Shown here piece by piece: positions 20,553 to 36,025 of a DNA stretch of 51,678 nucleotides. The position numbers and the translations under genes were made by a program. The stretch is taken from positions 1-51,678 of the forward strand of contig JAFUTW010000039.1 in NCBI GenBank assembly GCA_017484085.1, given 5' to 3'. Under the pieces are notes generated by a model, which saw nothing but the letters and a program-made list of their open reading frames with translations, did no database searches and was not told the DNA's origin. Source of the DNA: Clostridia bacterium (GTDB lineage: Bacteria > Bacillota > Clostridia > Christensenellales > Aristaeellaceae). Position 1 is the first letter of the stretch. Each line of letters begins with the position of its first letter.

Positions 20553-20592
20553 GTCAAGAAACAATGCTCAACAGTTACTGTTCAGGCTTCAA

Positions 20593-21705: not shown

Positions 21706-21755
21706 AGGTTTTCCTCCTTTGTGCTGATCGGGAAGATCCGTCTTCCCGTGCTGAT

Positions 21756-21787
21756 AACAGTATAGTGCTGTTTAGAAAGACTGTCAA
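21756..21787 (-). promoter_or_regulatory. Sigma-A promoter of the importer operon with overlapping inverted repeat
   Basis: Minus strand: TTGACA (21782-21787), 17 bases, TATACT (21759-21764). AACAG (21756-21760) and CTGTT (21768-21772) form an inverted repeat over the -10 box, and GTTTAG (21770-21775) is a half-site of the palindrome at 21973. Confidence 0.8.
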
Positions 21788-21928
21788 GTTATTATCGAAA
21801 AGAATTTAAGGAAAATGCCTGTTGAAAGGGCTGCTTATTCTGATAATAAGGACAGAGTAACGCTCGAAAAGTAGATTAAACAGACAAAATCGAGCTGAAA
21901 GTTTTAGAATCTTTTTTGTGCAGCAAGG

Positions 21929-21957
21929 TTGACATTACTTAACGATTCTACTATATT
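21929..21957 (+). promoter_or_regulatory. Sigma-A promoter of the microcompartment operon
   Basis: TTGACA (21929-21934), 17 bases, TATATT (21952-21957), about 75 bases before the aldolase ATG. Confidence 0.8.
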
Positions 21958-21972
21958 ATAGATGAATAGAAC

Positions 21973-21997
21973 CGTTTAGTTTACTAAACACTAAACG
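21973..21997. promoter_or_regulatory. Palindromic operator in the leader of the microcompartment operon
   Basis: CGTTTAG (21973-21979) is inverted as CTAAACG (21991-21997), with an inner GTTTAG-TTTA-CTAAAC palindrome nested within. It lies just after the predicted transcription start, so a bound repressor would block the operon. The LacI-family protein at 33827 is the obvious candidate. Confidence 0.7.
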
Positions 21998-22032
21998 ATC
22001 AAATGAAAGATACGGACAGGAGCAGATGAACC

Positions 22033-22926
22033 ATGCATGAAATGAAGCGCTATCCGACGGATGACGAAGCGAAAAAGCTGATCTGTGAGATCGGCCGCCG
22101 GATGTATCAGAAGAACTTCGTCGCCGCTAATGACGGAAACATCAGCTGCAAGGTGGATGACGACATCATCTGGGCGACACCCACGGGTGTCTCCAAGGGC
22201 TTTATGAGCGAGGACATCCTGGTCAAGCTCAGGCTGGACGGGACCGTGCTCTCCCAGGGGCCGCTCAAGCCCTCCAGTGAGATCAAGATGCATCTGCGCG
22301 TTTACAACGAAAACCCTGAGGTCGGCGGCGTTTGCCACGCGCATCCGCCGGTATCCACTTCTTTCGCCATCGCGGGTATGAGCCTGGACAAGGCGATCTA
22401 TCCCGAGGCGCTGGTCAACCTGGGCACAGTGCCCTGCGTGCACTATGAGACGCCGGGTTCCCAGGGCATCCCGGACAGCATCGCGCCCTACTGCCGCGAC
22501 TATAACGCGCTGCTGCTGGCCAACCACGGCGCGCTCTCCTGGGGCAGGGACGCTATGGAAGCGTGGTACCGCCTGGAATCGGTGGAGCACTACGCGATGG
22601 TCATCATGTACACGGGCAACATCATCGGCAAGGCGAACGTGCTCAGCTGCGACCAGGTGGGCGAGCTGATGGAGATCCGCAAGCGGATGGGCTACACGAG
22701 CGGCGGCGGAATGCCGGCCTGCACGGCGAGGCCGACCAACACGATGGACGTGGTGGCGACCAACCAGCCTGTGAACCCCGCGCCGGAGGCGCCGCGCGTA
22801 CTCAGGACCTACGGACAAAGCGAAGCGCCGGCATCTTCCTGCGGCTGCACCGGAAGCGCGGGCGCGAGCGAAGCGGAGCTGCGGGCTATCACCCAGGCGG
22901 TGCTGGAGCGGCTGAAGAACCTGTAA
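22033..22926 (+). CDS. Class II aldolase with C-terminal microcompartment-targeting peptide
   Basis: 297 residues, fuculose-phosphate/ribulose-phosphate aldolase family. Visible are the catalytic Glu83 (SSEIKMH) and zinc ligands His102 and His104 (CHAHPP) and His165 (ANHGAL). Family members cleave ketose 1-phosphates to dihydroxyacetone phosphate and an aldehyde. With MtnK and MtnA in the same operon, the likely substrate is 5-methylthioribulose 1-phosphate or 5-deoxyribulose 1-phosphate. After the catalytic domain comes a 40-residue Pro/Ala/Gly linker and a terminal amphipathic helix (about 279-297, EAELRAITQAVLERL), typical of cargo sent into BMC shells. A fuculose or rhamnulose phosphate role is possible but no matching isomerase or kinase is present. 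Confidence 0.85.
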   Translation: MHEMKRYPTDDEAKKLICEIGRRMYQKNFVAANDGNISCKVDDDIIWATPTGVSKGFMSEDILVKLRLDGTVLSQGPLKPSSEIKMHLRVYNENPEVGGVCHAHPPVSTSFAIAGMSLDKAIYPEALVNLGTVPCVHYETPGSQGIPDSIAPYCRDYNALLLANHGALSWGRDAMEAWYRLESVEHYAMVIMYTGNIIGKANVLSCDQVGELMEIRKRMGYTSGGGMPACTARPTNTMDVVATNQPVNPAPEAPRVLRTYGQSEAPASSCGCTGSAGASEAELRAITQAVLERLKNL

Positions 22927-22935
22927 AAGGATAAA

Positions 22936-22980
22936 CCCTTCAGTCAGCCGTCGGCTGACAGCTCCCCTTTCAGGGGAGCC
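22936..22980. repeat. Palindromic intergenic repeat, copy A
   Basis: Two head-on hairpins: CAGTCAGCCG/CGGCTGACAG-like, then GCTCCCCTTTCAGGGGAGC. The same layout recurs at 25974, 28639 and 28690. Related repeats are abundant between genes in gut Clostridia. Confidence 0.75.
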
Positions 22981-23020
22981 AAGAACGGATTTAAGAAATA
23001 AATAGGAAAGGAGGCTGCAT

Positions 23021-24352
23021 ATGAAGGCGATCGTCATCGGCGGCGTGGCCGCCGGCATGTCCGCGGCCTCCAAGCTGCGGCGCGTTCTGCCGGACGCCGA
23101 GATCCGCGTCTATGAGCGGGGTTCCTTCCTCTCCTACGGTGCGTGCGGCCTTCCTTATTATATAGGCGGGGCGAACGACAACCCGGCGCTGCTGATCGCC
23201 AGGACGAGAGAGCAGTATCAAAAGATGAACATCGACACCCGCCTGCGCTGCGAGGTGACACGGGTGGAGCCCGCCGCAAAGCGGATCACCGTGCGCTCGC
23301 TGGACACGGGCGAGGTTTTTGAGGATACCTATGACCGGCTGATGATCGCAACCGGCGCAAACAGCGTGATGCCGAAGATCCCCGGCGCGGATTCCGCAGG
23401 CGTCTTCTATCTGCGGAGCATGGAGGACGGGCTTTTCCTGCATGAATTCGTGCGCCTGCCCGAGGTGCGGCACGTCGCCGTGATCGGCGGAGGCGCGATC
23501 GGCGTGGAGATGGCGGAGGCGCTGGTGAAGCTGGGCAGGCAGGTCACGCTGCTGGAAGGCGGCAAGCGCATCCTGGCGCCCTATGAGCCGGAACTGTCCG
23601 AGCTGGCGGCGCAGGAGCTGGAGCGAAACGGCGTGCGCGTGCGCGTCGGCACGAAGGTGAGCGCAATTGAAGAGGGTTCGCAGGGTCGCATCGTCCGCAC
23701 GGAAAGCGGGGACGTGGCCTGCGATATGGTGCTGATGGCGGTGGGCGTCGTGCCCGCGACGGACTTCCTGCGCGACACGGGCATCCGCATGGCGCGCAAC
23801 GGCGCCATCCTCGTGGACAGGGAGCTGCGCACCAGCATTGAGGATATCTGGGCGGCGGGCGACTGCGCTACGGTCTACCACCGTGAAGCGCAGGAGGATT
23901 ACTTCATCCCGCTGGGGACGGTGGCCAACAAGTGCGGGCGCATCGCCGGCGGCAACATGGCCGGCGGACACGAGAAGTTCATCGGCGCGCTGGGCACCTC
24001 TGCCATCAAGGTCTTCTCTCTGGAGATGGGCAGGACGGGGCTCGGAGAGGCCGATGCCGCCCGGCTGGGTATCCGTTTTAAGACGAAGCTGGTCACCGCG
24101 ATGGATCACCCGGCCTATTATCCGAACCCGACGAAGCTTGTCATCAAACTGATCTACGAAGAGGGGACGAGGCGCCTGCTGGGGGCGTGCGTCTGCGGCG
24201 AGAAAAACGCGGTGCTGCGCTGCGACCTCTTCGCGCTGGCCATCCATAACAACATGACGACGGATGAACTGGGCATGGTGGATCTGGCGTACGCGCCGCC
24301 CTTCGCGGGCGTGTGGGACGCCGTGCACATCGCCGCCAACGCGGCAAAGTGA
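23021..24352 (+). CDS. CoA-disulfide reductase / NADH oxidase-like flavoprotein
   Basis: 443 residues, pyridine nucleotide-disulfide oxidoreductase fold. FAD motif GGVAAGMSAASKLRR at the N-terminus, the single redox Cys42 in SYGACGLPYYIGG as in CoA-disulfide reductases and Nox enzymes, NAD motif VIGGGAIGVEMAEAL and the second FAD motif WAAGDCA. It would reduce CoA disulfide or related persulfides with NAD(P)H, or reduce oxygen. Within a BMC operon it could keep CoA thiols reduced or act on a sulfur compound. AAAGGAGG lies upstream. The CoA-transferase-like gene begins 8 bases after its stop. Confidence 0.8.
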   Translation: MKAIVIGGVAAGMSAASKLRRVLPDAEIRVYERGSFLSYGACGLPYYIGGANDNPALLIARTREQYQKMNIDTRLRCEVTRVEPAAKRITVRSLDTGEVFEDTYDRLMIATGANSVMPKIPGADSAGVFYLRSMEDGLFLHEFVRLPEVRHVAVIGGGAIGVEMAEALVKLGRQVTLLEGGKRILAPYEPELSELAAQELERNGVRVRVGTKVSAIEEGSQGRIVRTESGDVACDMVLMAVGVVPATDFLRDTGIRMARNGAILVDRELRTSIEDIWAAGDCATVYHREAQEDYFIPLGTVANKCGRIAGGNMAGGHEKFIGALGTSAIKVFSLEMGRTGLGEADAARLGIRFKTKLVTAMDHPAYYPNPTKLVIKLIYEEGTRRLLGACVCGEKNAVLRCDLFALAIHNNMTTDELGMVDLAYAPPFAGVWDAVHIAANAAK

Positions 24353-24359
24353 GGTGCGC

Positions 24360-25163
24360 ATGAGCAAGCTGTGTACGATGAGCGAAGCGGTCTCACGCAT
24401 ACCGGACGGGGCCGTCGTGGGCCTCGGCGGCAACACGCTGAACCGGGCGCCGATGGCGGCTGTCTTCGAAATCATACGCCAGGGGAAGAAGAATCTGCAC
24501 CTGGTGAAGACGGCGGGGGCGATGGATATCGACGCCCTGTGCCTGGCCGGATGCGTTTCCTCGGTGGACGCGGGTTTTATCAGCTACGAGACGGAATTCG
24601 GGCTGGCCCAGCGCTACCGCCGCAGCGTGCAGCAGGGGCTGGTGCGCGCCAACGAGCATGCGTGCTACACCGTCATTTCCGCGCTGCGCGCCGCCTCCTA
24701 CGGCATCCCGTTCATGCCGGTGCGGGGACTCAAGACAAGCGATCTCAGAGCGGTCAATGACTATTTCGCGGATGTGACGGATCCCTTTACGGGAGAGAAG
24801 CTGGCCGCGGTGCGGGCGATCCGCCCGGATGTGTCCGTCGTGCACGCGCAGGCGGCGGATGCCAGGGGCAATGCCCGGTTCGAAGGCCCGAAGTTTGAGG
24901 ATGCGCTGCTTGCCCGGGCGGCGAAGACCGTGATCGTGACGGCGGAGCGCATCGTGGGCGACAGCTTTTTCGCGGCTGAGCGGGAGAAAGCGGACGTACC
25001 GCACTTCCTCGTGTCCGCGGTGGTGCACGCGCCGCACGGCGCCTCACCCGGGGCGTGTCCCGGCTGCTACGAGCCGGACGGGGACGCGATCCGCGCCTTC
25101 CTGAACCTTGCGGACGGGGACGCGCTGCTCTCCTGGCTGGAAGGGAGGCGGACGACATGGTAA
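24360..25163 (+). CDS. CoA-transferase-like protein, subunit A
   Basis: 267 residues, family I CoA-transferase alpha-subunit fold (glutaconate/3-oxoacid CoA-transferase type): GLGGNTLNRAP near residues 20-30, KTAGAMDIDALCLAGCV (about 56-72) and VVHAQAADARGNA near 160. The family moves CoA between acyl-CoA and a carboxylate. It overlaps subunit B by 7 bases, as usual for such pairs. In this operon it could move CoA from the pathway's acyl-CoA to acetate or another acid. GAGGTG precedes the start at 24360. Confidence 0.75.
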   Translation: MSKLCTMSEAVSRIPDGAVVGLGGNTLNRAPMAAVFEIIRQGKKNLHLVKTAGAMDIDALCLAGCVSSVDAGFISYETEFGLAQRYRRSVQQGLVRANEHACYTVISALRAASYGIPFMPVRGLKTSDLRAVNDYFADVTDPFTGEKLAAVRAIRPDVSVVHAQAADARGNARFEGPKFEDALLARAAKTVIVTAERIVGDSFFAAEREKADVPHFLVSAVVHAPHGASPGACPGCYEPDGDAIRAFLNLADGDALLSWLEGRRTTW

Positions 25164-25873
25164 GGACCTGCGACATCATGACGGTGGCCCTGTCCCGCCT
25201 CATCCATGACGGGGATACGGTGTTCCACGGGGTTTCCTCCCACATGCCGATGGTCGCCGTGATGCTGGCAAAGGCGACCCACGCGCCGAACGCGGCCTAT
25301 GTCAACATCCCGGGCGGTGTGGACCCGGAGCGGCCTGTGCTGCAGCGCTTTACCAGCGCGGGGACGGGCCTTTGGGACAGCGCCTGCGCCGCCTTCCCGC
25401 TGATGGACGTCTTCGATCTGTCGATGCGCGGCGGGCTGGATGTGGCGTTCCTCTCCGGCGTGCAGTTCGACAACCGGGGGAACGTCAACGCCTCCGTGAT
25501 TGGGGATTACCGAAAGCCGAAGGTCCGCCTGCCCGGCGGCGCGGGAAGCGCGGTGCTGATCCCGACGGCGAAGCGGGCGATCATCTGGAGGACCAAGCAC
25601 GACCGCCGCACCTTCACGGACAAGGTAGACTTCGTGACGGCAAAGGGGAACGTCAGCGACATCGTGACGCCGCTGTGCTGCTTTACGATGTATGAAGGTG
25701 AGCTGATTCTGAAAAGCGTCCATCCCGGCGTTTCCATTGACAGAGTGGCGGAGAATACGGCTTTCCCGCTGCGCTACTTCGAAATCACCGAAACGCCGCC
25801 GCCGACCGCGGAGGAGGAGGCTGCGCTGCGCAGGATCGACCCGCTGGATCTCAGAAATCTGGAGTTTCTGTAA
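25157..25873 (+). CDS. CoA-transferase-like protein, subunit B, without the usual catalytic Glu
   Basis: 238 residues, beta-subunit fold. THAPNAAYVNIPGGVD (41-56) corresponds to the region where related beta subunits carry the catalytic Glu (THAPN...Y-E-S-G). Here it reads N-I-P-G, so by eye the nucleophile is missing. FSGVQFDNRGNVNAS and the LPGGAG motif are conserved. The pair may therefore be a CoA-ester hydrolase or lyase, as some members of this fold are, rather than a transferase. My alignment is manual, so this needs a proper one. Confidence 0.7.
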   Translation: MVRTCDIMTVALSRLIHDGDTVFHGVSSHMPMVAVMLAKATHAPNAAYVNIPGGVDPERPVLQRFTSAGTGLWDSACAAFPLMDVFDLSMRGGLDVAFLSGVQFDNRGNVNASVIGDYRKPKVRLPGGAGSAVLIPTAKRAIIWRTKHDRRTFTDKVDFVTAKGNVSDIVTPLCCFTMYEGELILKSVHPGVSIDRVAENTAFPLRYFEITETPPPTAEEEAALRRIDPLDLRNLEFL

Positions 25874-25887
25874 GCGGCTGACGGTAA

Positions 25888-25964
25888 CCTCATCAGTCAC
25901 GGCTGGCGCCGCGACAGCTTCCCCTGAAGGGGAAGGTGGCAGCCCGTAGGGCTGCCGGATGAGG
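25888..25964. repeat. Palindromic intergenic repeat, copy B1
   Basis: Bounded by CCTCATC (25888-25894) and its inverse GATGAGG (25958-25964). Inside are two hairpins, CTTCCCCTGAAGGGGAAG and GGCAGCCCGTAGGGCTGCC. It looks like a small non-autonomous mobile repeat. Confidence 0.75.
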
Positions 25965-25973
25965 TCGTGAAGG

Positions 25974-26018
25974 CCCTCTCAGTCGGCTTCGCTGCCAGCT
26001 CCCCTACAGTGGAAGCCA
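25974..26018. repeat. Palindromic intergenic repeat, copy B2
   Basis: Same type as copy A: CCCTCTCAGTCGGC, an inner loop, GCTGCCAGCTCCCC, then a degenerate closing arm. Confidence 0.65.
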
Positions 26019-26058
26019 AGGGCGGAATCAAGAAAGATAGCACAAGAATGCAACCAAT

Positions 26059-26162
26059 ACCTTCCCCTATGGGGAAGGGGGACCGCGCCAACGGCGCGGT
26101 GGATGAGGTCCCTTGCCTCTCCCTGCGGGAGAGGGGGCACGCCGAAGGCGTGACGAAGAGGG
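26059..26162. repeat. Palindromic intergenic repeat, copy B3 (double unit)
   Basis: CCTTCCCCTATGGGGAAGG, then CCGCGCCAACGGCGCGG, GATGAGGTC, CCTCTCCCTGCGGGAGAGG and CACGCCGAAGGCGTG. Four consecutive hairpins related to copy B1. Confidence 0.65.
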
Positions 26163-26238
26163 TTCTGTCTCCCCGCTGCCCCAGCGGAAGAATTCATTTC
26201 GTAACCAAAACCTTAACATAGAAAGGAAGTTGACCAGT

Positions 26239-27453
26239 ATGTCCCGTTATGACACCTATTTTCTCATGAAGTGTGAAGACGTCGGCGATTATGTGCAGAC
26301 CAAGTATCCCGGCCACTTTGCCCCGGATGCGAAGCTGACCGCCAAGGAGATCGGCGACGGCAACCTCAACTACGTCTTCCGCGTGGTGGAAGAAGCGACG
26401 GGCAAGTCCGTCATCGTGAAGCAGGCCGGCGAGGCGCTGCGCATCTCCGCTGACATGCATGTCTCCACCGACCGTAACCGCATCGAAAGCGAGATCCTGC
26501 AGCTGCAGGACAAGTACGCACCCGGCCTGGTGCCTAAGATCTACGGCTATGACACCGTGATGTGCGCCTGCTGCATGGAAGACCTCTCCGACCACGAGCT
26601 CATGCGCTACGCGCTGATGCGCCACGAGATCTTCCCGCAGTTTGCCGAGGACATCACGACCTACATGGTCAATACCCTGCTTAAGACCACGGATGTGGCG
26701 ATGGAGCACAAGGAGAAGAAGGCGCTGGTCAAGAGCTTCATCAATCCGGAACTCTGCGAGATCACCGAGGATCTCGTGCTGACCGAGCCGTATAACGACA
26801 ACCAGGGCCGCAATAACGTCTTCCCGCCGATGGCTGACTTCGTGAAGAAGGAGCTCTACGGCGACGAAGAGCTGGCGCTCGCCGTGGCGAAGCTGAAATT
26901 CGAGTTTATGAACAACGCGCAGGCGCTGCTCCACGGCGACCTGCACACCGGCTCCATCTTCGTCAAGAAGGATTCCACCCGCGTGTTCGACCCCGAGTTC
27001 GCCTTCTACGGCCCCATGGGCTATGACATCGGCAACGTGATCGCCAACCTGATCTTCGCGTGGGACAACGGCAAGGCTTACGGCGCCGAGGCGTTCTGCG
27101 AGTGGATCCTCAAAACCATCGAGGAGACGGTCGACCTCTTCTGCAAGAAGTTCGTCGCCTGCTTCGACGAGTGCGTGACGGACCGCATGGCGAAGACGCC
27201 GGGCTTCCGCGAGGCGTATCTCGATTCCATCCTGAGCGACACTGCCGCGTACACCGGCACCGAGCTGCACCGCCGCACGGTGGGTATGGCCAACGTCAAG
27301 GACGTGACCACCATCAAGGATGAGGCAGCGCGTATCCATGCGGAAAAGGTCAACATCCTGGCGGGCAAGGATTACATCCTGCACCGCGACAGCTTCAAGA
27401 CCGGCGCTGATTTCGTGGCCGCCGTGCTGCGCGCGGACGAAGCCGCAAAGTAA
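26239..27453 (+). CDS. mtnK: S-methyl-5-thioribose kinase (MtnK-type)
   Basis: 404 residues, the usual MtnK length. The kinase motif HGDLHTGSI (from His232; catalytic Asp234) and [15 protein letters not shown] (from Asp251) are diagnostic of MtnK and its DrdK-like relatives. It phosphorylates the anomeric hydroxyl of 5-methylthioribose (or 5-deoxyribose) with ATP, in the cytosol. The start at 26239 follows GAAAGGAAG; longer in-frame starts lie within repeats. No shell-targeting helix is visible at either end. Paired with mtnA, 80 bases on. Substrate choice between methylthioribose and 5-deoxyribose cannot be read from sequence. Confidence 0.93.
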
Positions 27454-27470
27454 ACAGATTTATTCCGGCA

Positions 27471-27500
27471 GCCCGGTCCGCTCCCGAGGAGCGGCCGGGC
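27471..27500. other. Stable hairpin between mtnK and mtnA
   Basis: GCCCGG and CCGCTCC pair with GGAGCGG and CCGGGC around a CGA loop: 13 bp with one bulged T (27477). There is no U-run, so it looks like an RNA processing or stability element rather than a terminator. Confidence 0.6.
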
Positions 27501-27533
27501 GAAGCTTCAGAGCAGAACAAAGGAGTGTTTATC

Positions 27534-28634
27534 ATGGCTGAGGAAAGACGCAACATCATGACCTATGAGACGATCTCCCTGGACGAGCAGGAGAGAGCGA
27601 TCGTCTTCCCCGATCAGACCCTGCTTCCGGGCGAGGTGAAGATCCTGCACCTCACAAAGCAGAAGGACATCTGGAACGCCATCTACCTGCTTCAGGTCCG
27701 CGGCGCGCCGGCCATCGGCGTCGCGGCCGGCTTCGGCGTGTATCTGGCGGCGCTGGAGATCGAGACGGACGGCTATGACGAATTCAAGGCGAAGTTCCAC
27801 GAGGCCAAGGAGTACTTGAACTCCGCAAGGCCTACGGCGGTCAACCTCTCCTGGGCGCTGAACCGCATGGAGAAGGTCGTCCTGGACAACCCGGACAAGA
27901 GCGTTGCGGAACTGAAGGAACTGCTGCACCGCGAGTGCGTCGCCATCAAGGATGAGGACGTGTGGATGTGCCGCCAGATCGGCGAGTACGGTCTTACGCT
28001 CATCAAGGACGGCGACGGCATCCTCACCCACTGCAATGCCGGACAGCTGGCCACCTCCAAATACGGCACGGCGCTGGCACCCATCCACCTGGGCCGCGAG
28101 CGCGGGATGAACTTCCGCGTCTTCACCGATGAGACCCGTCCGCTGCTGCAGGGCGCGCGCCTGTCGGCGTTCGAGCTGCAGGAGGACGGCGTGGATACCA
28201 CGGTCATCTGCGACAACATGGCCTCCCAGGTGATGAAGAACGGCTGGGTCAACGCCGTGTTCGTCGGCTGCGACCGCGTGGCCGCCAACGGCGACGCCTG
28301 CAACAAGATCGGCACCTCCGGCGTGGCGATCCTGGCCAAGTATTACGGCATCCCCTTCTACGTTCTGGGGCCGACTTCCACGATCGACATGTCGATCGAA
28401 AAGGGCGAGGACATCACCATCGAGCAGCGGCCGGCCGAAGAGGTCACCGAAATGTGGTACAAGCAGCGCATGGCGCCCGAAGGCGTAAAGGTCTACAATC
28501 CGGCCTTCGACTTCGCGGACCACGAGCTGATCGCCGGCATCGTGACGGAATACGGCATCGCCAGACCGCCCTTTAACGAGAGCCTGAAGGAGATCTTCCG
28601 CAAGAAAGCCGAAGCGGAAGCCGCAAAGAAATGA
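27534..28634 (+). CDS. mtnA: S-methyl-5-thioribose-1-phosphate isomerase (MtnA-type)
   Basis: 366 residues. RGAPAIG (56-62), [10 protein letters not shown] with catalytic Cys167, and [10 protein letters not shown] with catalytic Asp247 match MtnA. It converts the aldose 1-phosphate to the ketose 1-phosphate (methylthioribulose or 5-deoxyribulose 1-phosphate), the substrate of the aldolase. AAAGGAG sits 8 bases before the ATG at 27534. The later methionine-salvage genes (mtnB, mtnC, mtnD) are absent, which points to the aldolase route (DHAP shunt) instead. No targeting peptide seen. Confidence 0.93.
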
Positions 28635-28638
28635 CAGA

Positions 28639-28682
28639 CCCTCTCAGTCAGCTGCGCTGACAGCTCCCCCGGAGAGGGAGCC
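28639..28682. repeat. Palindromic intergenic repeat, copy C1
   Basis: CCCTCTCAGTCAGCTGCGCTGACAG-type hairpin followed by GCTCCCCCGGAGAGGGAGC. Same family as copies A and B2. Confidence 0.7.
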
Positions 28683-28689
28683 GGGAAAA

Positions 28690-28733
28690 CCCTTCAGTCA
28701 GCTGCGGTGACAGCTCCCCTTTCAGGGGCGCGG
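28690..28733. repeat. Palindromic intergenic repeat, copy C2
   Basis: CCCTTCAGTCAGCTGCGGTGACAG-type hairpin, then GCTCCCCTTTCAGGGGCGC. It is very close to copy A and lies 8 bases from C1. Confidence 0.7.
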
Positions 28734-28750
28734 AGGAGAGAGCGCACAGA

Positions 28751-28806: not shown

Positions 28807-28820
28807 TCAGAGGAAAGAGC

Positions 28821-29726: not shown

Positions 29727-29767
29727 GATGACCAAAGCGGTCAATCATCAACAATGAGGATAAAGAC

Positions 29768-31201
29768 ATGGCATTGACAGAACAACAAATCCGGCAAATC
29801 ACGGAAGAGATCGTCCGCAGCCTGAGCAGTCAGGCGGGAGCGGCGCAGGCTGCCCCGGCTTCTGTTCCGTCCTCCGGCTCTACAGGCCGCTGGCTGTGTG
29901 ATACCGCGGAGGAGGCGATTGCCAACGCCAAGGCCGCGCAGGCGCAGCTGGCGGAGATGACGCTGGAGAAGCGCGGAGAGCTGATCGCCGCCATGCGCAG
30001 GGCAGGCATCGAAAACGCGGAGCCGCTGGCGCGCCTGGCGCACGAGGAGACGGGCTACGGACACGTGGCGGACAAGATCCAGAAAAACCTTCTGGTCAGC
30101 CGCCGCACGCCGGGCATCGAGGACCTGGTGACGCGCTGTGAGACAGGCGACAAGGGCATGATGCTGATCGAGCAGGCCCCCTTCGGGGTCATCGGCTCCA
30201 TCACGCCCTCGACCAACCCGACCTCCACGGTCATCAACAACTCCATCAGCATGATTGCCGCGGGCAATGCGGTGGTCTTCAATCCGCATCCTGCCGCCAA
30301 GCGCGCCTCGCAGGAGGCCATGCGCGTCATGTCGGAGGCGATCGTAGGCGCAGGCGGCCCCATTGGCCTCATCACGACGGTGAAGGAACCGACGCTGGAG
30401 ACCGGTCAGGCGATCATGACGCACAAGGACATCCCGCTGCTGTCCATCACCGGCGGCGAAGCCGTGGTGAAGGTGGCAATGAAAACGGGCAAGAAGGTCA
30501 TCGCGGCCGGTCCGGGCAATCCGCCGGTCATCGTGGACGATACGGCCGACATCCCGGACGCCGCCAGGCGCATCGTGGACGGCGCTTCCTTTGACAACAA
30601 TGTGCTGTGTATCGCGGAAAAGGAAGTCTTCGCCTTCTCGAATATTACCGACCGGCTGATGAGCGAGATGGAGCGCTGCGGCGCCTTCCGCATCAGCGGC
30701 GCGGACATCGACAAGGTGCTGAAGACTACGCTGATCCCGAAGGACGGGAGGCACGTGATCAACCGCAAGTTTGTGGGACACGATGCCGCTGTCATCCTTC
30801 GCGAAGCCGGCGTGCCGTTTTCAGGGGATCCCCGCCTCATCATCTGCGAGGTGGACCGCAACCATCCCTTTGTCATGACCGAGATGCTGATGCCCGTGCT
30901 GGCCATCGTGCGCGTGCGGAACATCGACGAGGCCATCGAGGAGGCGTACCGCGCGGAGCAGGGCTGCAAGCACTCCGCCATGATCCACTCCACCAACGTA
31001 CACAATATGAGCCGCGCAGCCAGACGGCTGAACACGACGATCTTCGTCAAGAACTCGTCTTCATTCTCCGGCCTGGGCTTTGACGGCGAGGGATATACGA
31101 CCATGACCATCGCCACGCCCACGGGCGAGGGCGTCACCAGCGCAAGGTCTTTTACCAGGCTGCGCCGCTGCGTGCTCTACGGGGATTTCAGGATCTGCTG
31201 A
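29768..31201 (+). CDS. pduP: CoA-acylating aldehyde dehydrogenase, PduP/EutE-like
   Basis: 477 residues. An N-terminal amphipathic helix (3-20, EQQIRQITEEIVRSL) and a Ser/Ala/Pro linker form a BMC-targeting peptide. The catalytic domain shows ITPSTNPTST (145-154), the glycine-rich SITGGEAVVK and the nucleophile Cys281 (NNVLCIAEKEV). It oxidises an aldehyde with NAD+ and CoA to acyl-CoA. Here the aldehyde would be acetaldehyde or methylthioacetaldehyde from the aldolase. It is the signature enzyme of aldehyde-oxidising shells. Confidence 0.92.
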   Translation: MALTEQQIRQITEEIVRSLSSQAGAAQAAPASVPSSGSTGRWLCDTAEEAIANAKAAQAQLAEMTLEKRGELIAAMRRAGIENAEPLARLAHEETGYGHVADKIQKNLLVSRRTPGIEDLVTRCETGDKGMMLIEQAPFGVIGSITPSTNPTSTVINNSISMIAAGNAVVFNPHPAAKRASQEAMRVMSEAIVGAGGPIGLITTVKEPTLETGQAIMTHKDIPLLSITGGEAVVKVAMKTGKKVIAAGPGNPPVIVDDTADIPDAARRIVDGASFDNNVLCIAEKEVFAFSNITDRLMSEMERCGAFRISGADIDKVLKTTLIPKDGRHVINRKFVGHDAAVILREAGVPFSGDPRLIICEVDRNHPFVMTEMLMPVLAIVRVRNIDEAIEEAYRAEQGCKHSAMIHSTNVHNMSRAARRLNTTIFVKNSSSFSGLGFDGEGYTTMTIATPTGEGVTSARSFTRLRRCVLYGDFRIC

Positions 31202-31226
31202 GAACGCCTGAAAGGACTGAACCAGC

Positions 31227-32558
31227 ATGAACATCGTGGACAAGGTGCGCGCTGCGGGTGTCGTCGGCGCGGGCGGCGCGGGCTTTCCGGCCCACGTAAA
31301 GCTCTCCGGCCACGCAGAGGTCGTGATCGCCAACGGCGCCGAGTGCGAACCGCTGCTGCGCTGCGACCAGCTGCTCATGGAGCGGGAGGCGCAGCGCGTC
31401 GCGGCAGGCCTTCGCCTGGCGATGGAGGCGACGGGCGCCGAGCGCGGCGTGATCGCCACAAAGGCGCATTACGAGGGGGCGGTGCAGGCCCTGCAGAGGG
31501 CGCTGGCCGGCGAGAGCCGGATTACACTGCACCTCATGGACAGCTACTACCCTTCCGGCGACGAAAAATCCATCATCTACGAGGTGACGGGCAAAACGGT
31601 ACCGACGGGCAAGCTGCCGCTGGACGCGGGCTGTGTCGTTTCCAACGTCATGAGCCTTGCGCAGATCGCGGATGCGTGTGAAGGCAGGCCGGTCATCCAC
31701 AGGGACGTCACCGTCGGAGGAGAGGTGCCGCACCCTGTGACCCTCAGCGTTGCGATCGGCACGCCGATGTCGGAGGTGATCGCGCGCAGCGGCTTTGACG
31801 GGAACAGAGAAGAGTACGCGCTCATCGTCGGAGGCCCCTGCATGGGACGGCTGGAGGATGACTGGAACGCCCCGGTGACCAAGACGACGGGCGGTCTGCT
31901 GATCTTCCCGAAGAGCCATCTGCTGATCCGGAGGCGGACGCAGAAACCGGAGCGTATGCTGCGCCTCATGCGGGCGGTGTGCTGCCAGTGCAGCCAGTGC
32001 ACGCAGCTGTGTCCGCGCAACGCCATGGGGCTGCGCGTAACGCCGCACAAGGCCATGCGGGCCATGGTGACGGGCAACGGGCTGATGCTCGGCGATCCGC
32101 AGTGGGTGCTGGCGTGTTCCTCCTGCGGGGTGTGCACCAACTACGCCTGCCCGATGGGCCTCCGGCCTTCGGACGTCATGGCTCTGTACAAGCAGGAGCT
32201 CGCACGCATGGGCGTAAAGCCACAGCCGGAGGCAGAGATCCGCCCTGATCCGTTCCTTGCGCAGAAGCGGGTGCCGGTCTCAAGGCTGATCGCGCGCATG
32301 GGACTGACCCGGTATGATGTACCGGCGCCGTACGCAGCGGAGCCTGTCAGACCGAAAAAGGTGCTGATCCCGCTGCGCCAGCATGTGGGAAAGGCCGCGG
32401 AGGCGACCGTGCACGTGGGGGACACCGTGCGCGCGGGGGACCTGATCGGAAGGCTGCCCGCGAAGGCGCTGAGCGCCAGGGTGCACGCTTCCATCGACGG
32501 ACGGGTGACGCGGGCGGATGAGACCGCGATCGAAATCACGGGAGGTGATGCGGTATGA
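31227..32558 (+). CDS. pduS: PduS-like NADH dehydrogenase with iron-sulfur clusters (RnfC-type)
   Basis: 443 residues. An N-terminal glycine-rich NADH/flavin site (GAGGAGFPAHVKL, 14-26) and NGAECEP are as in RnfC/PduS. Two [4Fe-4S] motifs follow: C-x-x-C-x-x-C-x-x-x-C-P from about 252 and C-x-x-C-x-x-C-x-x-x-C-P from about 297. The tail has a barrel-sandwich (biotinyl-like) segment. PduS regenerates NAD+ or reduces cobalamin in Pdu shells. No B12 enzyme is in this operon, so electron removal from NADH is the likely role. It overlaps pduT by 4 bases. Confidence 0.9.
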   Translation: MNIVDKVRAAGVVGAGGAGFPAHVKLSGHAEVVIANGAECEPLLRCDQLLMEREAQRVAAGLRLAMEATGAERGVIATKAHYEGAVQALQRALAGESRITLHLMDSYYPSGDEKSIIYEVTGKTVPTGKLPLDAGCVVSNVMSLAQIADACEGRPVIHRDVTVGGEVPHPVTLSVAIGTPMSEVIARSGFDGNREEYALIVGGPCMGRLEDDWNAPVTKTTGGLLIFPKSHLLIRRRTQKPERMLRLMRAVCCQCSQCTQLCPRNAMGLRVTPHKAMRAMVTGNGLMLGDPQWVLACSSCGVCTNYACPMGLRPSDVMALYKQELARMGVKPQPEAEIRPDPFLAQKRVPVSRLIARMGLTRYDVPAPYAAEPVRPKKVLIPLRQHVGKAAEATVHVGDTVRAGDLIGRLPAKALSARVHASIDGRVTRADETAIEITGGDAV

Positions 32559-33100
32559 TTGCCATCGGAGCCGTGGAGACGCACAGCATCCCTCTGGGCG
32601 TGCTGTCCGGCGACCAAATGCTGAAGACCGCGCAGGTGGATTTGATCGAGGCGCAGACGACGTGCCCGGGCAAATACATCGTCATCATCTGCGGCGAGGT
32701 GGCCGCGGTCAGGAGTTCGGTCCAGGCGGGCATTGAGGCGGCGGGCGAGACCCTCGTCGACAGCCTGGTCATCCCGAACATCGACGAGCGTGTGGTGGCC
32801 GCCATGGCCGGTGCCTGTCCGGCGGACGGCGTACAGGCGGTGGGCGTGCTGGAAACCTTTTCGCTGGCCAGCTGCATCAACGGGGCGGACGCGGCGGTGA
32901 AGGCTGCGGACGTGGAGCTGATCGAGGTGCGCCTGGGGCGCGGCATGGGCGGCAAGTCCTTCTTCGTGGTCACCGGAGAGGTGGCTGCCGTGGAAGCGTC
33001 CATCCGCGCGGCTGAAGCGCTTTCGGGCATGGAAGGGCTGATCGCTTCCCGCGTCGTCATCCCGTCGCCCCATCCGGATCTGATTACCGCGCTGATGTAA
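32555..33100 (+). CDS. pduT: PduT-like trimeric shell protein (BMC-T) with iron-sulfur cysteine
   Basis: 181 residues with two tandem BMC domains (about 3-85 and 93-181). TCPGKYIVI carries Cys37, equivalent to the pore cysteine of PduT that holds a [4Fe-4S] cluster. It would form a pseudohexameric tile that passes electrons through the shell, with PduS as partner; the translational overlap supports this. Confidence 0.92.
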   Translation: MIAIGAVETHSIPLGVLSGDQMLKTAQVDLIEAQTTCPGKYIVIICGEVAAVRSSVQAGIEAAGETLVDSLVIPNIDERVVAAMAGACPADGVQAVGVLETFSLASCINGADAAVKAADVELIEVRLGRGMGGKSFFVVTGEVAAVEASIRAAEALSGMEGLIASRVVIPSPHPDLITALM

Positions 33101-33145
33101 GGCAGCGGATCAAAGAGAAAAACCAAGCAAAGGAGTTACCCTACC

Positions 33146-33436
33146 ATGAAAGAAGCATTGGGCATGATCGAAACGCGGGGCCTGGTCGGCTCCATTGAAG
33201 CGGCGGATGCGATGGTGAAAGCGGCGAACGTCCATCTCATCGGCAAAGAGCACGTGGGCGGCGGTCTCGTGACCGTGATGGTGCGCGGCGACGTCGGTGC
33301 CGTCAAGGCGGCGGTGGAAGCCGGCGGCGCTGCAGCAAAGCGCGTGGGCGAACTCATCTCCGTGCATGTGATCCCGCGCCCGCACGGCGACGTCGAAGCG
33401 ATCCTCCCCAACCTGCCGGAGCTGCATGAAGCCTGA
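33146..33436 (+). CDS. Hexameric shell protein (BMC-H), copy 1, PduA-like
   Basis: 96 residues, a single BMC domain: [21 protein letters not shown] start, pore loop GKEHVGGG (about 34-42) and the VIPRPH edge motif. It makes the flat hexamers of the shell; the pore admits small polar substrates. A strong AAAGGAG precedes it. It is nearly identical to the next gene apart from the first residues, a Glu/Val change in the pore loop and the C-terminal tail. Confidence 0.95.
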
Positions 33437-33490
33437 GCGGGTCGGATGATACAAATCACAACAAACAGCGACAGCTGAAAGGAGCACACT

Positions 33491-33766
33491 ATGGAAAAGC
33501 AGGCATTGGGCATGGTAGAAACCAAGGGTTTGGTCGGTTCCATCGAAGCGGCGGATGCGATGGTGAAGGCGGCAAACGTCCATCTCATCGGCAAGGTGCA
33601 CGTGGGCGGCGGCCTCGTGACCGTGATGGTGCGCGGCGACGTCGGCGCGGTGAAGGCCTCCGTTGAGGCGGGCGGCGCTGCAGCAAAGCGCGTGGGCGAA
33701 CTCATTTCCGTGCACGTGATCCCGCGCCCGCATGATGATGTGGAGGCTATCCTGCCCCATCTGTAA
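33491..33766 (+). CDS. Hexameric shell protein (BMC-H), copy 2, PduA-like
   Basis: 91 residues, a single BMC domain with pore loop [11 protein letters not shown] and protein identity with copy 1 is very high, so this is a recent tandem duplication. The Glu to Val change beside the pore could alter permeability. GAAAGGAG precedes the ATG. Confidence 0.95.
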
Positions 33767-33826
33767 GCGGCGGGACAAAAGCGGGGGATTCGGGCTACTG
33801 AATAACAGACGGGTGAGTGATGCGCT

Positions 33827-34846
33827 ATGACCATTCGGGAAATTGCTGCGCTGGCGGGCGTTTCGCCTGCCGCGGTATCCCTTGTCATCAACCATAAAAA
33901 AGGCGTTGGCGAAGAGACGCGCCGGCGCATACAGGGGGTTATGGATGAGTACGGCTACAGCCCTGCCGCACCGCGGCGGCAGGCTGCCCGTTTCCGTCTC
34001 ATGGTCATCAAATTTCGCGCACACGGCATTGCGCTGGAGGAAAACCAGGGCTTCATCGCTTCCATCATCGACAGGATCGACAGCGAGTGCCGCAGGCTCT
34101 CCTTCGATCTCATGACGTGCAACTGCGAGGCAAAAACGGCGGCGGAGACCATCCGCACGCTGATGGAGAACCGGCCGGACGGCGTCATCGTCATCGGCAC
34201 GGAGCTGCGGCAGGAGGCTTACGGCCTTCTGCGCCTCATCACGGTCCCGACGGTCGTCCTGGACAACAACATCCTGATGGAAAACGTGGATACGGTGGTC
34301 ATGGCAAACCGGGAACTGATGGCCAGGCAGGTGCGCTACCTGTACGGCCTGGGCTACCGTGAGATCGGGTACTTCAAGTTCAAGCAGCCCGTCAACAACT
34401 GCGATGAGCGCTACGAGGGCTATCTTTCGGAGCTTGCGCGCCTGGGGCTCGCGGCCCCGGAGCCCATCCTGCTGGAGCCGACGGTGGACGGCGCCTTTGA
34501 GGATATGAAGAACCTCATCCGCAGCGGCGCGTACATTCCCCACGGCGCGGCGCTTGCGGACAACGATACCGTCGCGATCGGCGCCATCAAAGCGATCCGC
34601 GAGGCGGGATACCGGATCCCCGAGGATTTCTCCATCGTGGGCTTCGACGACATCCCGTTTTCCGCGGTGACGATGCCGGCGCTGACGACCATGCGCATCT
34701 CCCGCTCCCAGATGGGGACGCTCGCGGTGGATCTCATCCGCAAGCGCGTCAAGCATCCGGAGTGGCCGGGCATGCACATGCAGATCGGCGGAAAGCTCAT
34801 CGAGCGCGCGAGCGTGCGGCCGATTGAGGCGGGAGGAAAAGGCTGA
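33827..34846 (+). CDS. LacI-family regulator inside the microcompartment operon
   Basis: 339 residues. The helix-turn-helix IREIAALAGVSPAAVSLVINHKKGV (3-27) and a sugar-binding domain ending in VGFDDIPFS are clear. It lies between the BMC-H and BMC-P genes, on the same strand, 1 base before the next gene, so it is co-transcribed. It is the best candidate to bind the palindrome at 21973 and control both the operon and the divergent importer in response to a pathway sugar. Confidence 0.88.
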   Translation: MTIREIAALAGVSPAAVSLVINHKKGVGEETRRRIQGVMDEYGYSPAAPRRQAARFRLMVIKFRAHGIALEENQGFIASIIDRIDSECRRLSFDLMTCNCEAKTAAETIRTLMENRPDGVIVIGTELRQEAYGLLRLITVPTVVLDNNILMENVDTVVMANRELMARQVRYLYGLGYREIGYFKFKQPVNNCDERYEGYLSELARLGLAAPEPILLEPTVDGAFEDMKNLIRSGAYIPHGAALADNDTVAIGAIKAIREAGYRIPEDFSIVGFDDIPFSAVTMPALTTMRISRSQMGTLAVDLIRKRVKHPEWPGMHMQIGGKLIERASVRPIEAGGKG

Positions 34847-34847
34847 T

Positions 34848-35171
34848 ATGCTGGTCGGTCGGGTGACGGGTGCGGTCATCAGCACCAACAAGGTGGAGAG
34901 CCTGCGCGGCACGAAGATGCTGATCGTGCAGCCGGTCGCGCTGGATACGCTCGTGATGTCGGAGGATTACGTCATCTGCGTGGACGACGTGGGCGCGGGG
35001 CTGGGGGATCTTGTCTTCTGCGCTTACGGCAGCTCCGCCAGGCAGTCGGACACCTCCAAGAAGGTGGCGTCCGACTACAGCATCTACGGCATCATCGACT
35101 CCATCGACATGCGCGGACAGAGGACCTACGACAAGGCAAAGGAGACGGCGGCATGCAGTTGGCAAGAGTGA
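34848..35171 (+). CDS. Pentameric shell vertex protein (BMC-P), copy 1
   Basis: 107 residues of the EutN/CcmL/PduN family: G-R-V-T-G-x-V-x-S-T-x-K start, LIVQP, VDDVGAGLGDLVFC and GIIDSID. Such pentamers cap the shell vertices. Start at 34848 after GGGAGG. It overlaps the next gene by 19 bases. Confidence 0.92.
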   Translation: MLVGRVTGAVISTNKVESLRGTKMLIVQPVALDTLVMSEDYVICVDDVGAGLGDLVFCAYGSSARQSDTSKKVASDYSIYGIIDSIDMRGQRTYDKAKETAACSWQE

Positions 35172-35455
35172 TCGGCAGCATGGTGAGCACGAGAAAGTGC
35201 GACAGGCTGGAAGGGCTGAAGCTGCTCGTGGCTGTCCCCATCGACATGGATACCTTCCGGGAGAAGGGCTCCCCGTTCATCACGGTGGATACGGTGGGCG
35301 CCGGGGAAGGTGAGATCGTCATGTGGGCGGGCGGAAGCTCCTCCCGGCAGACGGACCTGACGACGAACAAGCCCGTGGACAGCTCCATCGTGGGCATCGT
35401 GGATTTTGTGGATATCGAAGGGAAACGGGTCTACAGCAAGGGGCAGGAGACATGA
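35153..35455 (+). CDS. Pentameric shell vertex protein (BMC-P), copy 2
   Basis: 100 residues, same fold: ARVIGSMVSTRKCDRLEGLKLL, then VDTVGAGEGEIVMWAGG and GIVDFVDI. Only about as similar to copy 1 as to other family members, so an old paralogue. It overlaps copy 3 by ATGA. Confidence 0.92.
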   Translation: MQLARVIGSMVSTRKCDRLEGLKLLVAVPIDMDTFREKGSPFITVDTVGAGEGEIVMWAGGSSSRQTDLTTNKPVDSSIVGIVDFVDIEGKRVYSKGQET

Positions 35456-35742
35456 AGATCGCGAAGGTGACGGGCACGGTGGTCTCCACCATCAAATATG
35501 AGAAGTACCGCGGCATGAAGCTGCTGCGCGTGCGCCACCTCACGCTGGAAGGGGAACTGACGGGTGAGGAGCTCGTGGCGCTGGATGCTGCGGACGCGGG
35601 CGTGGGCGACATCGTCCTGGTCAACAACGACGGCGGCGCGGCGCAGATGGTCATGGGGGACAAGACGCTGATCGCCAGCGTGACCATCTGCGGGGTCATC
35701 GATTCGTACACCTGGCAGGGGCGTACGGTGCACTGCCATTGA
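35452..35742 (+). CDS. Pentameric shell vertex protein (BMC-P), copy 3
   Basis: 96 residues: AKVTGTVVSTIKYEKYRGMKLL, then DAADAGVGDIVLVNNDGGAA and VIDSYTW. The ATG at 35452 overlaps the stop of copy 2. Confidence 0.9.
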   Translation: MKIAKVTGTVVSTIKYEKYRGMKLLRVRHLTLEGELTGEELVALDAADAGVGDIVLVNNDGGAAQMVMGDKTLIASVTICGVIDSYTWQGRTVHCH

Positions 35743-35761
35743 GCGGAAGGGAGGGTTGGCG

Positions 35762-36025
35762 TTGAATCTGGGCAAGGTCGTGGGCAGCGTGGTCTGCACG
35801 GTGAAGACGCCGACGCTGGAAGGCATCAAGCTGCTGGTCGTCCGGCAGATCGTGAACGGACAGGAAAAGGGCCTCATCATCGCCTGCGACGGGACGCGTC
35901 AGGCGGGGATCGGGGATGTCGTTTACATGATCGGGCGCAAGGAGGCGGCGCTGATGCTGGACCTCAAGGATCCGCCGCCCAGCGACACCACCATCGCGGG
36001 CATCATCGACCCGGAAACGCTGTGA
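35762..36025 (+). CDS. Pentameric shell vertex protein (BMC-P), copy 4, with TTG start
   Basis: 87 residues: N-L-G-K-V-V-G-S-V-V-C-T-V-K, then DGTRQAGIGDVVYMIGRKEAA and AGIIDPE. The start is TTG 35762, 6 bases after GGGAGGG; the TTG at 35756 is too close to that site. Last gene of the operon, followed by a terminator. Confidence 0.88.
   Translation: MNLGKVVGSVVCTVKTPTLEGIKLLVVRQIVNGQEKGLIIACDGTRQAGIGDVVYMIGRKEAALMLDLKDPPPSDTTIAGIIDPETL

Follow-up and report, generated by a model that had tools for sequence, protein, structure and literature searches.

Within the window, i.e., the whole 51,678-nucleotide stretch of DNA from a Clostridia bacterium that was analysed, a single plus-strand run of genes (22033..36025) probably encodes a metabolosome for the dihydroxyacetone phosphate (DHAP) shunt. 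That is, its sequence points to a bacterial microcompartment (BMC) by which 5-deoxyribose and/or 5-methylthioribose would be used. An initial annotation had already proposed a shunt that ends in a shell. This reading is supported by the linkage of mtnK, mtnA and BMC genes in 24/80 related loci, by an aldolase tail that is present when the aldolase is BMC-linked, by GRM5-like BMC loci that are free of mtn genes and by the separate tree clade of the latter's aldolases.

Gene content and control region

Profile searches of the window's open reading frames provide the following gene order (all plus strand). The run starts with a class II aldolase that ends in a linker and a C-terminal encapsulation-peptide-like helix (22033..22926). 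It is followed by an FAD/NAD(P)H CoA-disulfide-reductase-like protein (23021..24352; PRK09564 with 525.9 bits, cut-off 458, but TIGR03385 with 430.3 bits, below its cut-off of 578.8) and two CoA-transferase-fold proteins, subunit A (24360..25163; PF01144, 92 bits) and subunit B (25157..25873; PF01144, 74 bits). MtnK (26239..27453; TIGR01767, 419.6 bits, cut-off 275) and MtnA of the aldose-1-phosphate isomerase family (27534..28634; TIGR00512, 399.6 bits, cut-off 279) represent the kinase and isomerase of the DHAP shunt. Both the PduL phosphotransacylase (28821..29726; PRK15070, 239.7 bits, cut-off 209) and the CoA-acylating aldehyde dehydrogenase (AldDH; 29768..31201; PRK15398, 640.5 bits, cut-off 403) typical of metabolosomes are present, next to a PduS/RnfC-like protein (31227..32558; RnfC model TIGR01945, 260.1 bits, cut-off 245.95). 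The shell genes comprise one PduT-like BMC-T protein with two PF00936 domains (32555..33100; TIGR02526, 121 bits, below its cut-off of 250.3), two BMC-H proteins (33146..33436 and 33491..33766; PF00936, 104 and 98 bits, cut-off 24.5) and four BMC-P vertex proteins (34848..35171, 35153..35455, 35452..35742 and 35756..36025; PF03319, 86, 95, 75 and 62 bits, cut-off 25), i.e., BMC-H and BMC-P genes are found within one locus. In between, an RbsR-like LacI-family regulator is encoded (33827..34846; PF13377 and PF00356; RbsR model 158 bits, below its cut-off of 382). No core alcohol dehydrogenase was found among the genes of 22033..36025 by these searches.

A divergent ribose-type ABC importer on the minus strand belongs to the locus. 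It consists of a ribose-family permease (17931..18938; NCBIfam PRK09512, 132 bits, below the cut-off of 398), a monosaccharide-family ATPase (18964..20487; profile matches) and a sugar-binding protein (Peripla_BP_4; 20593..21705; PF13407, 45 bits). Every gene named in the initial annotation is thus present on the plus strand within one run, and the proposed end at 36025 stands. The proposed start at 21706 does not; the first gene begins at 22033 and 21706..22032 is the divergent promoter region. The CoA-disulfide-reductase-like gene, the two CoA-transferase-fold genes, the LacI gene and the importer (17931..21705, minus strand) had been omitted.

Upstream of the aldolase, a promoter-like arrangement of TTGACA, 17 bases and TATATT can be read from the sequence (21929..21957, plus strand). 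Directly after the -10 element follows a near-perfect 16-base palindrome, GTTTAGTTTACTAAAC (21974..21989, plus strand; 7/8 pairs), whose pattern has no other match in the window at up to 3 mismatches (0.05 expected). A scan of 12 loci identified the exact pattern in L036 of the near relative G011, candidate 3-mismatch sites in L053, L054 and L039, and none in L035, L037, L038, L052, L055, L056, L059 and L133. The palindrome is a possible LacI operator, such that the LacI protein would probably repress next to the promoter. A DeoR match is found in 14 of the 24 related loci with mtnK, mtnA and BMC genes; the window has LacI instead.

With regard to the rest of the genome (81% complete), every shell gene found sits in this locus. 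AckA is encoded elsewhere, and an MtnN-type nucleosidase, i.e., an MTA/5'-deoxyadenosine nucleosidase, is found at C36 of the window's genome (G000), unlinked to the locus (155.7 bits, cut-off 73.8). The enzymes listed as absent in the initial annotation have to be separated: EutB (PF06751), FucI and RhaA indeed have no match in the 81% complete genome, while the missing match for the diol dehydratase (PF02286) is no proof of absence, as the respective search was also silent in every control genome. The initial annotation's exclusion of the classical BMC types is valid as far as signature enzymes of the locus are concerned; it had not taken the PVM-like type into account.

Conserved linkage and aldolase tail

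Related loci (in total 80) were fetched by similarity with an aldolase alignment. Among these, 73 contain mtnA (median gap to the aldolase 168 bases), 31 contain BMC genes and 26 both. MtnK and mtnA genes together with one or more BMC-domain genes recur in 24/80 loci; the initial annotation had suggested searching for mtnK and mtnA near BMC-H and BMC-P genes. Chance is therefore a poor explanation of the neighbourhood and was rejected. All 24 loci carry AldDH and PduL, 21 a ribose-type ABC importer and 6 an Fe-ADH match. Several related loci also encode DhaK/DhaL kinases, which counts against the shunt reading, since these would be unneeded if the aldolase releases DHAP.

Carriers of linked loci are Clostridia, Bacilli and one Treponema (L059), a metagenome bin for which mis-binning is possible. 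In Clostridium bovifaecis and Calidifontibacillus, PF00936 genes occur solely at the mtn-aldolase-BMC locus, and in the near relative G011 both mtnA and pduL were read by eye. As a further point against the reading, L078 shows BMC genes and the aldolase, with mtnK/mtnA absent from the stretches read. L057 was counted as lacking BMC genes because its flank ends early; its genome (G042) has them. Also counting against it, the linkage is rare across 341 Clostridia: mtnA lies within 15 kb of BMC-P in 3/95 BMC-P genomes (two tables compared by eye), namely the window itself and two genomes with a partial BMC-P domain.

MtnK retains the HGDLHTGS and DPEFAFYGP motifs of 2olc, and MtnA the Cys of CNAG and the Asp of the VGxDR motif of 2yrf. 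In the aldolase, Glu83, His102, His104 and His165 are invariant among 21 aligned sequences. The aldolase stays below the cut-off of each of the best 25 of 27 NCBIfam models matched. A role as the MtnB dehydratase of methionine salvage was rejected (78 bits vs. a TIGR03328 cut-off of 137). The profile of the 21 rows scores DrdA (111.9 bits), pneumococcal FucA (111.7) and 6voq (110.3) alike, and for the single window aldolase (phmmer) 6vop and 6voq, which we take to be YgbL-type proteins, rank above DrdA. Given these ties, the substrate assignment rests on the neighbouring genes.

An alternative is a plain pentose as substrate, where ribose 1-phosphate would be converted via ribulose 1-phosphate to DHAP and glycolaldehyde, the latter being oxidised by the BMC. 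The importer and LacI resemble ribose systems, and the aldolase scores 80 bits against a model for ribulose-1-phosphate aldolase of haloarchaea, whose cut-off is 300. Against this, MtnK lies 145 bits above the cut-off of its methylthioribose kinase model and MtnA 121 bits above that of its own model, and ordinary ribokinase routes make such a path unnecessary. We consider it very unlikely.

Next to the gene linkage, the metabolosome reading is supported by the aldolase's tail, defined as at least 43 residues. An encapsulation-peptide-like tail is found in 36/36 BMC-linked rows vs. 13/57 other rows. Based on independent tree pairs, 4-6 agree with the association, 0 oppose it and 5-7 are equal (sign test, p between 0.03 and 0.125, median 0.06). 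The underlying tree of 93 rows is from a quick search, shows long branches and omits L035, L036, L040, L057, L058, L132, L133 and L134, i.e., copies of kept rows or pieces. Concerning the 13 tailed rows lacking local BMC genes, L055, L056, L079 and L131 are cut-off stretches; the genomes of L071, L085 and L086 have their only PF00936 genes in a locus of different make-up; for L077, L081 and L082, one out of several BMC clusters per genome was read; L106 has no PF00936 gene; and L063 and L090 are the remaining ones. The distant BMC loci fetched from genomes with such aldolases (L135-L138; other clusters in G436, G437 and G438 left out) are of another make-up.

In the structure model of the aldolase (mean pLDDT 63), a low-confidence stretch (232-277) is followed by a helix (280-296), with core residues 114-164 also below 50. 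The modelled helix appears encapsulation-peptide-like and may direct encapsulation. Judged by eye, PduL has an encapsulation-like N-terminus, besides a C-terminal extension, and so does AldDH, while neither MtnK nor MtnA shows an encapsulation-like tail.

Comparison with known systems

The DHAP shunts of E. coli (MtnK-MtnA-Ald2) and B. thuringiensis (DrdK-DrdI-DrdA) use the same kinase and isomerase families and a class II aldolase, and some known clusters contain sugar transporter genes, as is the case here. In contrast, a shell is not mentioned in the available parts of the respective reports (PMC6079011, PMC10986504), whereas here a tailed aldolase is joined by AldDH, PduL and shell genes. 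The initial annotation named no experimentally described example; among the matches listed by a literature search, no paper joins microcompartments to methylthioribose or 5-deoxyribose, i.e., to a 5-deoxypentose pathway. The SPU metabolosome also splits a sugar phosphate to acetaldehyde beside a shell, but relies on RpiB and an aldolase of the DeoC type. The locus contains neither of the two, as its genes were assigned to other families.

Metabolosomes for fucose/rhamnose are also similar. GRM5 loci share a tailed class II aldolase, AldDH, PduL and BMC-H/P in similar order, and PVM metabolosomes (Planctomycetes, Verrucomicrobia) the class II aldolase signature and several BMC-P. With a class II aldolase in a BMC locus of Firmicutes, the window agrees with the PVM-like description in PMC4207490, and the locus may coincide with this catalogued, functionally unproven type. 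The main-text descriptions used for comparison (Axen 2014, Sutter 2021) name neither mtn nor CoA genes. PVM metabolosomes act on fuculose/rhamnulose phosphates, with mtn genes not mentioned in the source excerpts, and a human microbiome survey predicts fucose/rhamnose-like substrates for PVM-like BMCs (PMC8156839).

As a rival reading, the locus could encode a PVM-like or GRM5-type metabolosome that uses fucose/rhamnose, with mtnK/mtnA being bystanders or serving another sugar. Besides the survey's prediction, this agrees with the homology of shell, AldDH, PduL and aldolase to GRM5-like loci (L042, L043, L164-L168, L170-L172), and the aldolases of L164-L168 and L170-L172 are 46-52% identical to the Lacrimispora aldolase. 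These eight GRM5-like loci, however, are all without mtnA and mtnK (0/8), compared to mtnA in 26/31 BMC-linked loci. GRM5 furthermore has a glycyl radical enzyme and its activase (confirmed in the GRM5-like control L164), and neither was found among the profile-searched genes of our locus. The four GRM5-like rows of the aldolase tree form a separate clade, although this also holds the mtnA-linked L047, which groups on a long branch with FucA-like and GRM5-like rows. Together with the lack of FucI and RhaA matches in the genome, this led us to reject the fucose/rhamnose reading as very improbable.

The CoA-transferase-fold pair belongs to the same fold family as AibAB, glutaconate CoA-transferase and IpdAB and shares their two-gene pairing. 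Subunit A (closest solved structure 5mzw) has an invariant Cys within an EHACYT motif; IpdA carries a Glu at this site, which is the residue by which 6co6 and 6coj differ. Subunit B (nearest 5mzw/1poi) shows NIxGG in 26/26 rows, although some rows are nearly redundant, with L035 closely matching the window and L057 closely matching L037. That is, in contrast to AibAB, an invariant Ile resides at the usual nucleophile position, the one of the AibB Cys. The catalytic Glu of Gct is presumably at the same position, and subunit B has Ile in place of this Family I CoA-transferase residue.

Such proteins would have a role if 5-methylthioribose was the main substrate and the CoA-reductase-like and CoA-transferase-fold proteins processed the sulfur-bearing product, e.g., methylthioacetyl-CoA. 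Respective genes are found in 19/24 loci with mtnK, mtnA and BMC genes, subunit A carries the invariant Cys, and 2/24 loci encode a RuBisCO-like protein nearest to methylthio-enolase models, yet below their cut-offs. Conversely, the genes are not shown in 5/24 loci, no enzyme with known sulfur role is present, and the computed data do not separate the two 5-deoxypentoses. We regard methylthioribose as main substrate to be unlikely.

Finally, the locus might serve low-flux detoxification or salvage rather than growth. In B. thuringiensis, the DHAP shunt is reported to relieve 5-deoxyribose inhibition (PMC10986504 and PMC6079011). The importer in 21/24 loci and the AldDH/PduL module, by which energy can be conserved, favour the use of external sugar instead, which renders such a low-flux device unlikely.

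Proposed pathway and its meaning

For the DHAP-shunt metabolosome, we propose that the importer takes up the 5-deoxypentose, i.e., 5-deoxyribose and/or 5-methylthioribose. Alternatively, it might be supplied by the cell's own nucleosidase through export-free salvage from 5'-deoxyadenosine or methylthioadenosine. MtnK would phosphorylate C1, and MtnA would isomerise the product to give the ketose 1-phosphate; as no tail is seen by eye on either enzyme, both steps probably take place in the cytosol. The ketose 1-phosphate would enter the shell and there be split into DHAP plus acetaldehyde (or methylthioacetaldehyde) by the aldolase, for which the C-terminal helix would serve as targeting signal. 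Acylating AldDH and PduL, likewise encapsulated, would convert the toxic aldehyde via acyl-CoA to acyl phosphate while recycling CoA, and the acetate kinase encoded elsewhere could make ATP. PduS and PduT probably carry NADH electrons out of the lumen.

On a broader scale, and more tentatively, this may be a widespread distinct metabolosome class by which anaerobes and bacilli use 5-deoxypentoses from radical-SAM/polyamine chemistry, saving energy that the shell-less, aerobic E. coli shunt loses as ethanol. It might include part or all of the 'PVM-like' BMCs, whose substrate would then be misassigned, as well as an undescribed two-subunit CoA-transferase-fold enzyme (invariant Cys replacing known catalytic residues) with a CoA-disulfide-reductase-like partner, perhaps acting on methylthioribose-derived sulfur-bearing acyl-CoA. 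Cultured carriers exist, which makes this directly testable; they include Lacrimispora celerecrescens, Lacrimispora xylanisolvens, Anaerocolumna aminovalerica and Proteocatella sphenisci. According to PMC10986504, E. coli MtnK-MtnA-Ald2 enables growth on 5-deoxyribose with oxygen or TMAO, without fermentation of 5-deoxyribose. If true, our reading would suggest how 5-deoxyribose, which E. coli could not ferment, could support fermenting bacteria. It would also revise the function predicted for a group of aldolase-type BMCs that has been reported from gut bacteria. It would furthermore add a new substrate class for bacterial organelles, i.e., SAM by-products would be food rather than waste.

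Gene content and conserved residues of the window locus

Sequence reading and HMM scans identify one plus-strand run at 22033-36025. It starts with a class II aldolase, a CoA-disulfide-reductase-like protein and the CoA-transferase-fold subunits A and B, continues with MtnK, MtnA, PduL and an acylating aldehyde dehydrogenase (AldDH), and ends with a PduS/RnfC-like protein, a PduT-like BMC-T, two BMC-H, a LacI regulator and four BMC-P proteins. That is, the enzyme and shell genes named in the initial annotation are all present in a single run. Divergent from the aldolase, a ribose-family ABC importer is encoded on the minus strand (17931-21705). Between them lies a promoter-like TTGACA-17-TATATT and, just downstream, the near-perfect palindrome GTTTAGTTTACTAAAC (7/8 pairs), whose pattern has a single match in the window vs. 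0.05 expected. Repeats of about 45 bases with G+C-rich inverted arms occupy three intergenic operon gaps (22954-22998, 25971-26035, 28636-28750). Downstream of the locus, the minus strand encodes a radical SAM protein (40089-40982); such enzymes can release 5'-deoxyadenosine. The window genome (2.43 Mb, 49 contigs, 81% complete) has one copy of MtnA, and no PF00936/PF03319 genes were found elsewhere in it.

Compared with its Bacillus counterpart 2olc, MtnK retains HGDLHTGS and DPEFAFYGP, and MtnA retains the Cys and Asp of 2yrf, which we take to be catalytic. In the aldolase, Glu83, His102, His104 and His165 are invariant in 21/21 aligned sequences, with Glu83 aligned to the PSSE Glu of DrdA. 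Since the aldolase profile scores nearly equally against DrdA (111.9 bits), S. pneumoniae FucA (111.7) and 6voq (110.3) in the PDB, its substrate is assigned from the neighbouring genes and not from its sequence.

The CoA-transferase-fold pair (24360-25873) is nearest to 5mzw, which we take to be AibAB of Myxococcus, and to glutaconate CoA-transferase. In 26/26 rows (some being near copies), the NIxGG Ile of subunit B is aligned with a Cys position that is variable between entries of the 5mzw series, and the EHACYT Cys of subunit A (also 26/26) takes the place of the 6co6 Glu (Ala in 6coj); these Cys and Glu positions of the solved structures are presumably catalytic. Given both invariant residues, the alignment makes an ordinary CoA-transferase unlikely, and the pair is possibly a candidate for an undescribed activity.

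Recurrence of mtn genes beside shell genes

An aldolase search of 100 related genomes gave the closest homologues (68-98% identity) in four genomes, all of which show the aldolase adjoining mtnK, mtnA, AldDH, BMC genes and the same type of importer as in the window. Gene order in genome G011 (mtnA and pduL identified by eye) equals that of the window; G042 and G055 are rearranged. For a wider scan, a five-row aldolase alignment was compared with one genome per species. Among the best 80 loci of the matches listed, 73 hold mtnA, 31 BMC-domain genes, 26 both, and 24 the triple of mtnK, mtnA and BMC genes. The linkage pointed out in the initial annotation hence recurs, and the observation of mtn genes joined to a shell locus is real. 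Five of the BMC loci show no mtnA; three of them (L074, L083, L092) end at a contig or flank edge, and in L078 and L130 it was not found within the retrieved stretch. L078 is a variant BMC locus (8880-13400) with a nucleoside hydrolase adjoining a tailed aldolase (i.e., one extended C-terminally to its core); neither mtnK nor mtnA was seen in the stretches examined.

All 24 triple loci hold AldDH and PduL, 21 the importer and 6 PduS. The CoA-reductase-like flavoprotein is a steady companion of the CoA-transferase-fold pair; these genes are found in 19 triple loci and were not seen in 5/24. Further recurrent genes, counted by phmmer (at least 60 bits), are DeoR (14/24), a solute-binding-like protein (10/24), Fe-ADH and DhaK (6/24 each) and, more rarely, an RbsD/FucU mutarotase (3/24), DhaL and a RuBisCO-like protein (2/24 each). 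In some related BMC loci, the latter lies between mtnA and aldolase (L103:8775-9917, L158:7843-8979; a match also in L107), and methylthio-enolase models are nearest to the L103 protein, with scores below their cut-offs. An SBP_bac_1 solute-binding family member is encoded within the BMC operon at L064:14737-15867 and L156:13707-14807, with no signal peptide obvious by eye at its start.

Carriers among the best 80 matches listed include Candidatus Limiplasma, Proteocatella, Anaerocolumna, Lacrimispora, Clostridium, Bacillus, Paenibacillus, Salipaludibacillus, Calidifontibacillus, Gracilibacillus and one Treponema bin. For C. bovifaecis and Calidifontibacillus, every PF00936 gene sits at the mtn-linked locus. 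In an evenly drawn sample of 341 Clostridia, BMC-P genes occur in 95 genomes and MtnA in 110; only three genomes (window, G089, G245; tables compared by eye) combine the two within 15 kb, the BMC-P domain being only partial in G089 and G245. The locus type is thus wide but thin in distribution. In G089 (Christensenella), which has no PF00936 match, a 229-residue protein with the partial domain (L098:8213-8899) adjoins mtnA and a tailed aldolase.

The aldolase as putative shell cargo

At least 43 residues follow the conserved aldolase core in 36/36 BMC-linked rows vs. 13/57 others. For tree-independent row pairs, 4-6 agree with this tail-BMC association, none opposes it and 5-7 tie (p 0.03-0.125, median 0.06); without six cut-off or ambiguous rows, 5-6 agree, none opposes and 2-3 tie (p 0.03-0.06). 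The aldolase structure model, which is of modest quality (mean pLDDT 63, one core stretch also <50), predicts a low-confidence stretch (residues 232-277) followed by a helix (280-296), as expected for an encapsulation peptide. Judged by eye, the N-termini of AldDH and PduL appear similar to encapsulation-type tails, and no such tail was seen on MtnK or MtnA.

Counting against a strict tail-shell rule are the 13 rows that have a tail but no BMC genes in the locus. Four are cut-off stretches; for L071, L085 and L086, the genome's only PF00936 genes are in a locus of different composition; one BMC cluster out of several was examined in each of the genomes of L077, L081 and L082; no PF00936 gene was found in the genome of L106; L063 and L090 complete the set. 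The Bacilli of L135-L138 have another BMC locus of different make-up (three BMC-domain proteins, one BMC-P, a weak PduL match), in which the models used found no AldDH.

Fucose/rhamnose or DHAP-shunt substrates

A human microbiome survey (PMC8156839) predicts a fucose/rhamnose-like substrate for PVM-like BMCs, a type enlarged in Sutter 2021. The description of this type fits the Bacilli/Lachnospiraceae branch of mtn-linked loci, which may therefore be catalogued already, without the shunt function assigned. Outside the mtn group, the closest BMC-linked aldolases (46-52% identity to the Lacrimispora aldolase) belong to loci resembling GRM5, the fucose/rhamnose metabolosome with a glycyl radical enzyme. 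Within the family of L078's genome (250 genomes, 73 with a match), 18 loci from 18 genomes were fetched, 11 of them with BMC genes. Three of these hold mtnK and mtnA (L155, seemingly identical to L066; L156; L158), and neither gene was found in the other eight (L164-L168, L170-L172). In the GRM5-like L164, glycyl radical enzyme, activase and Zn-ADH were confirmed; five more of the eight GRM5-like loci have an ORF of similar size to this enzyme (843-877 residues). Zn-ADH also occurs in L130 and, together with an HbpS-like protein and DeoR, in L042. In the aldolase tree, L042, L043, L130 and L131 group with six rows including the FucI neighbour L049 (support 99); the mtnA-linked L047 is placed in the same clade on a long branch, and long branches tend to attract one another. 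FucI is found in 2/9 and RhaA in 3/7 genomes with mtn-linked aldolase. The window genome (81% complete) matches neither, in line with the initially stated absence of fucose/rhamnose enzymes.

The published DHAP shunt (MtnK-MtnA-aldolase) yields, according to PMC10986504, DHAP and acetaldehyde or methylthioacetaldehyde from 5-deoxyribose or 5-methylthioribose. By the same account, it lets E. coli grow on 5-deoxyribose aerobically or by TMAO respiration but not by fermentation, the acetaldehyde ending as ethanol with oxygen and as a mixture including acetate without it. The window genome encodes AckA (contig C17), and an AldDH-PduL-acetate kinase branch would convert the shunt aldehyde to ATP. 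Based on the recurrent linkage, the neighbouring genes and the retained MtnK, MtnA and aldolase residues, the DHAP-shunt metabolosome put forward initially is the best available interpretation of the locus. We consider it likely, with our confidence slightly lowered by the tailed exceptions and the mtnA-linked aldolase outside the main group.

The initial annotation cited no experimentally described example, and the searchable literature (most subscription papers being outside its scope) provided no description of an organelle for methylthioribose, 5-deoxyribose or methylthioadenosine. Full-text matches joining 'microcompartment' and 'thioribose' include neither BMC catalogue, and no paper among the matches listed of a wider search combines microcompartment and DHAP-shunt terms. 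The one near mention concerns Acetobacterium woodii, where a neighbouring methylthioribose kinase is called unrelated to BMC function. What is new is the evidence for DHAP shunt and shell as one recurrent unit.
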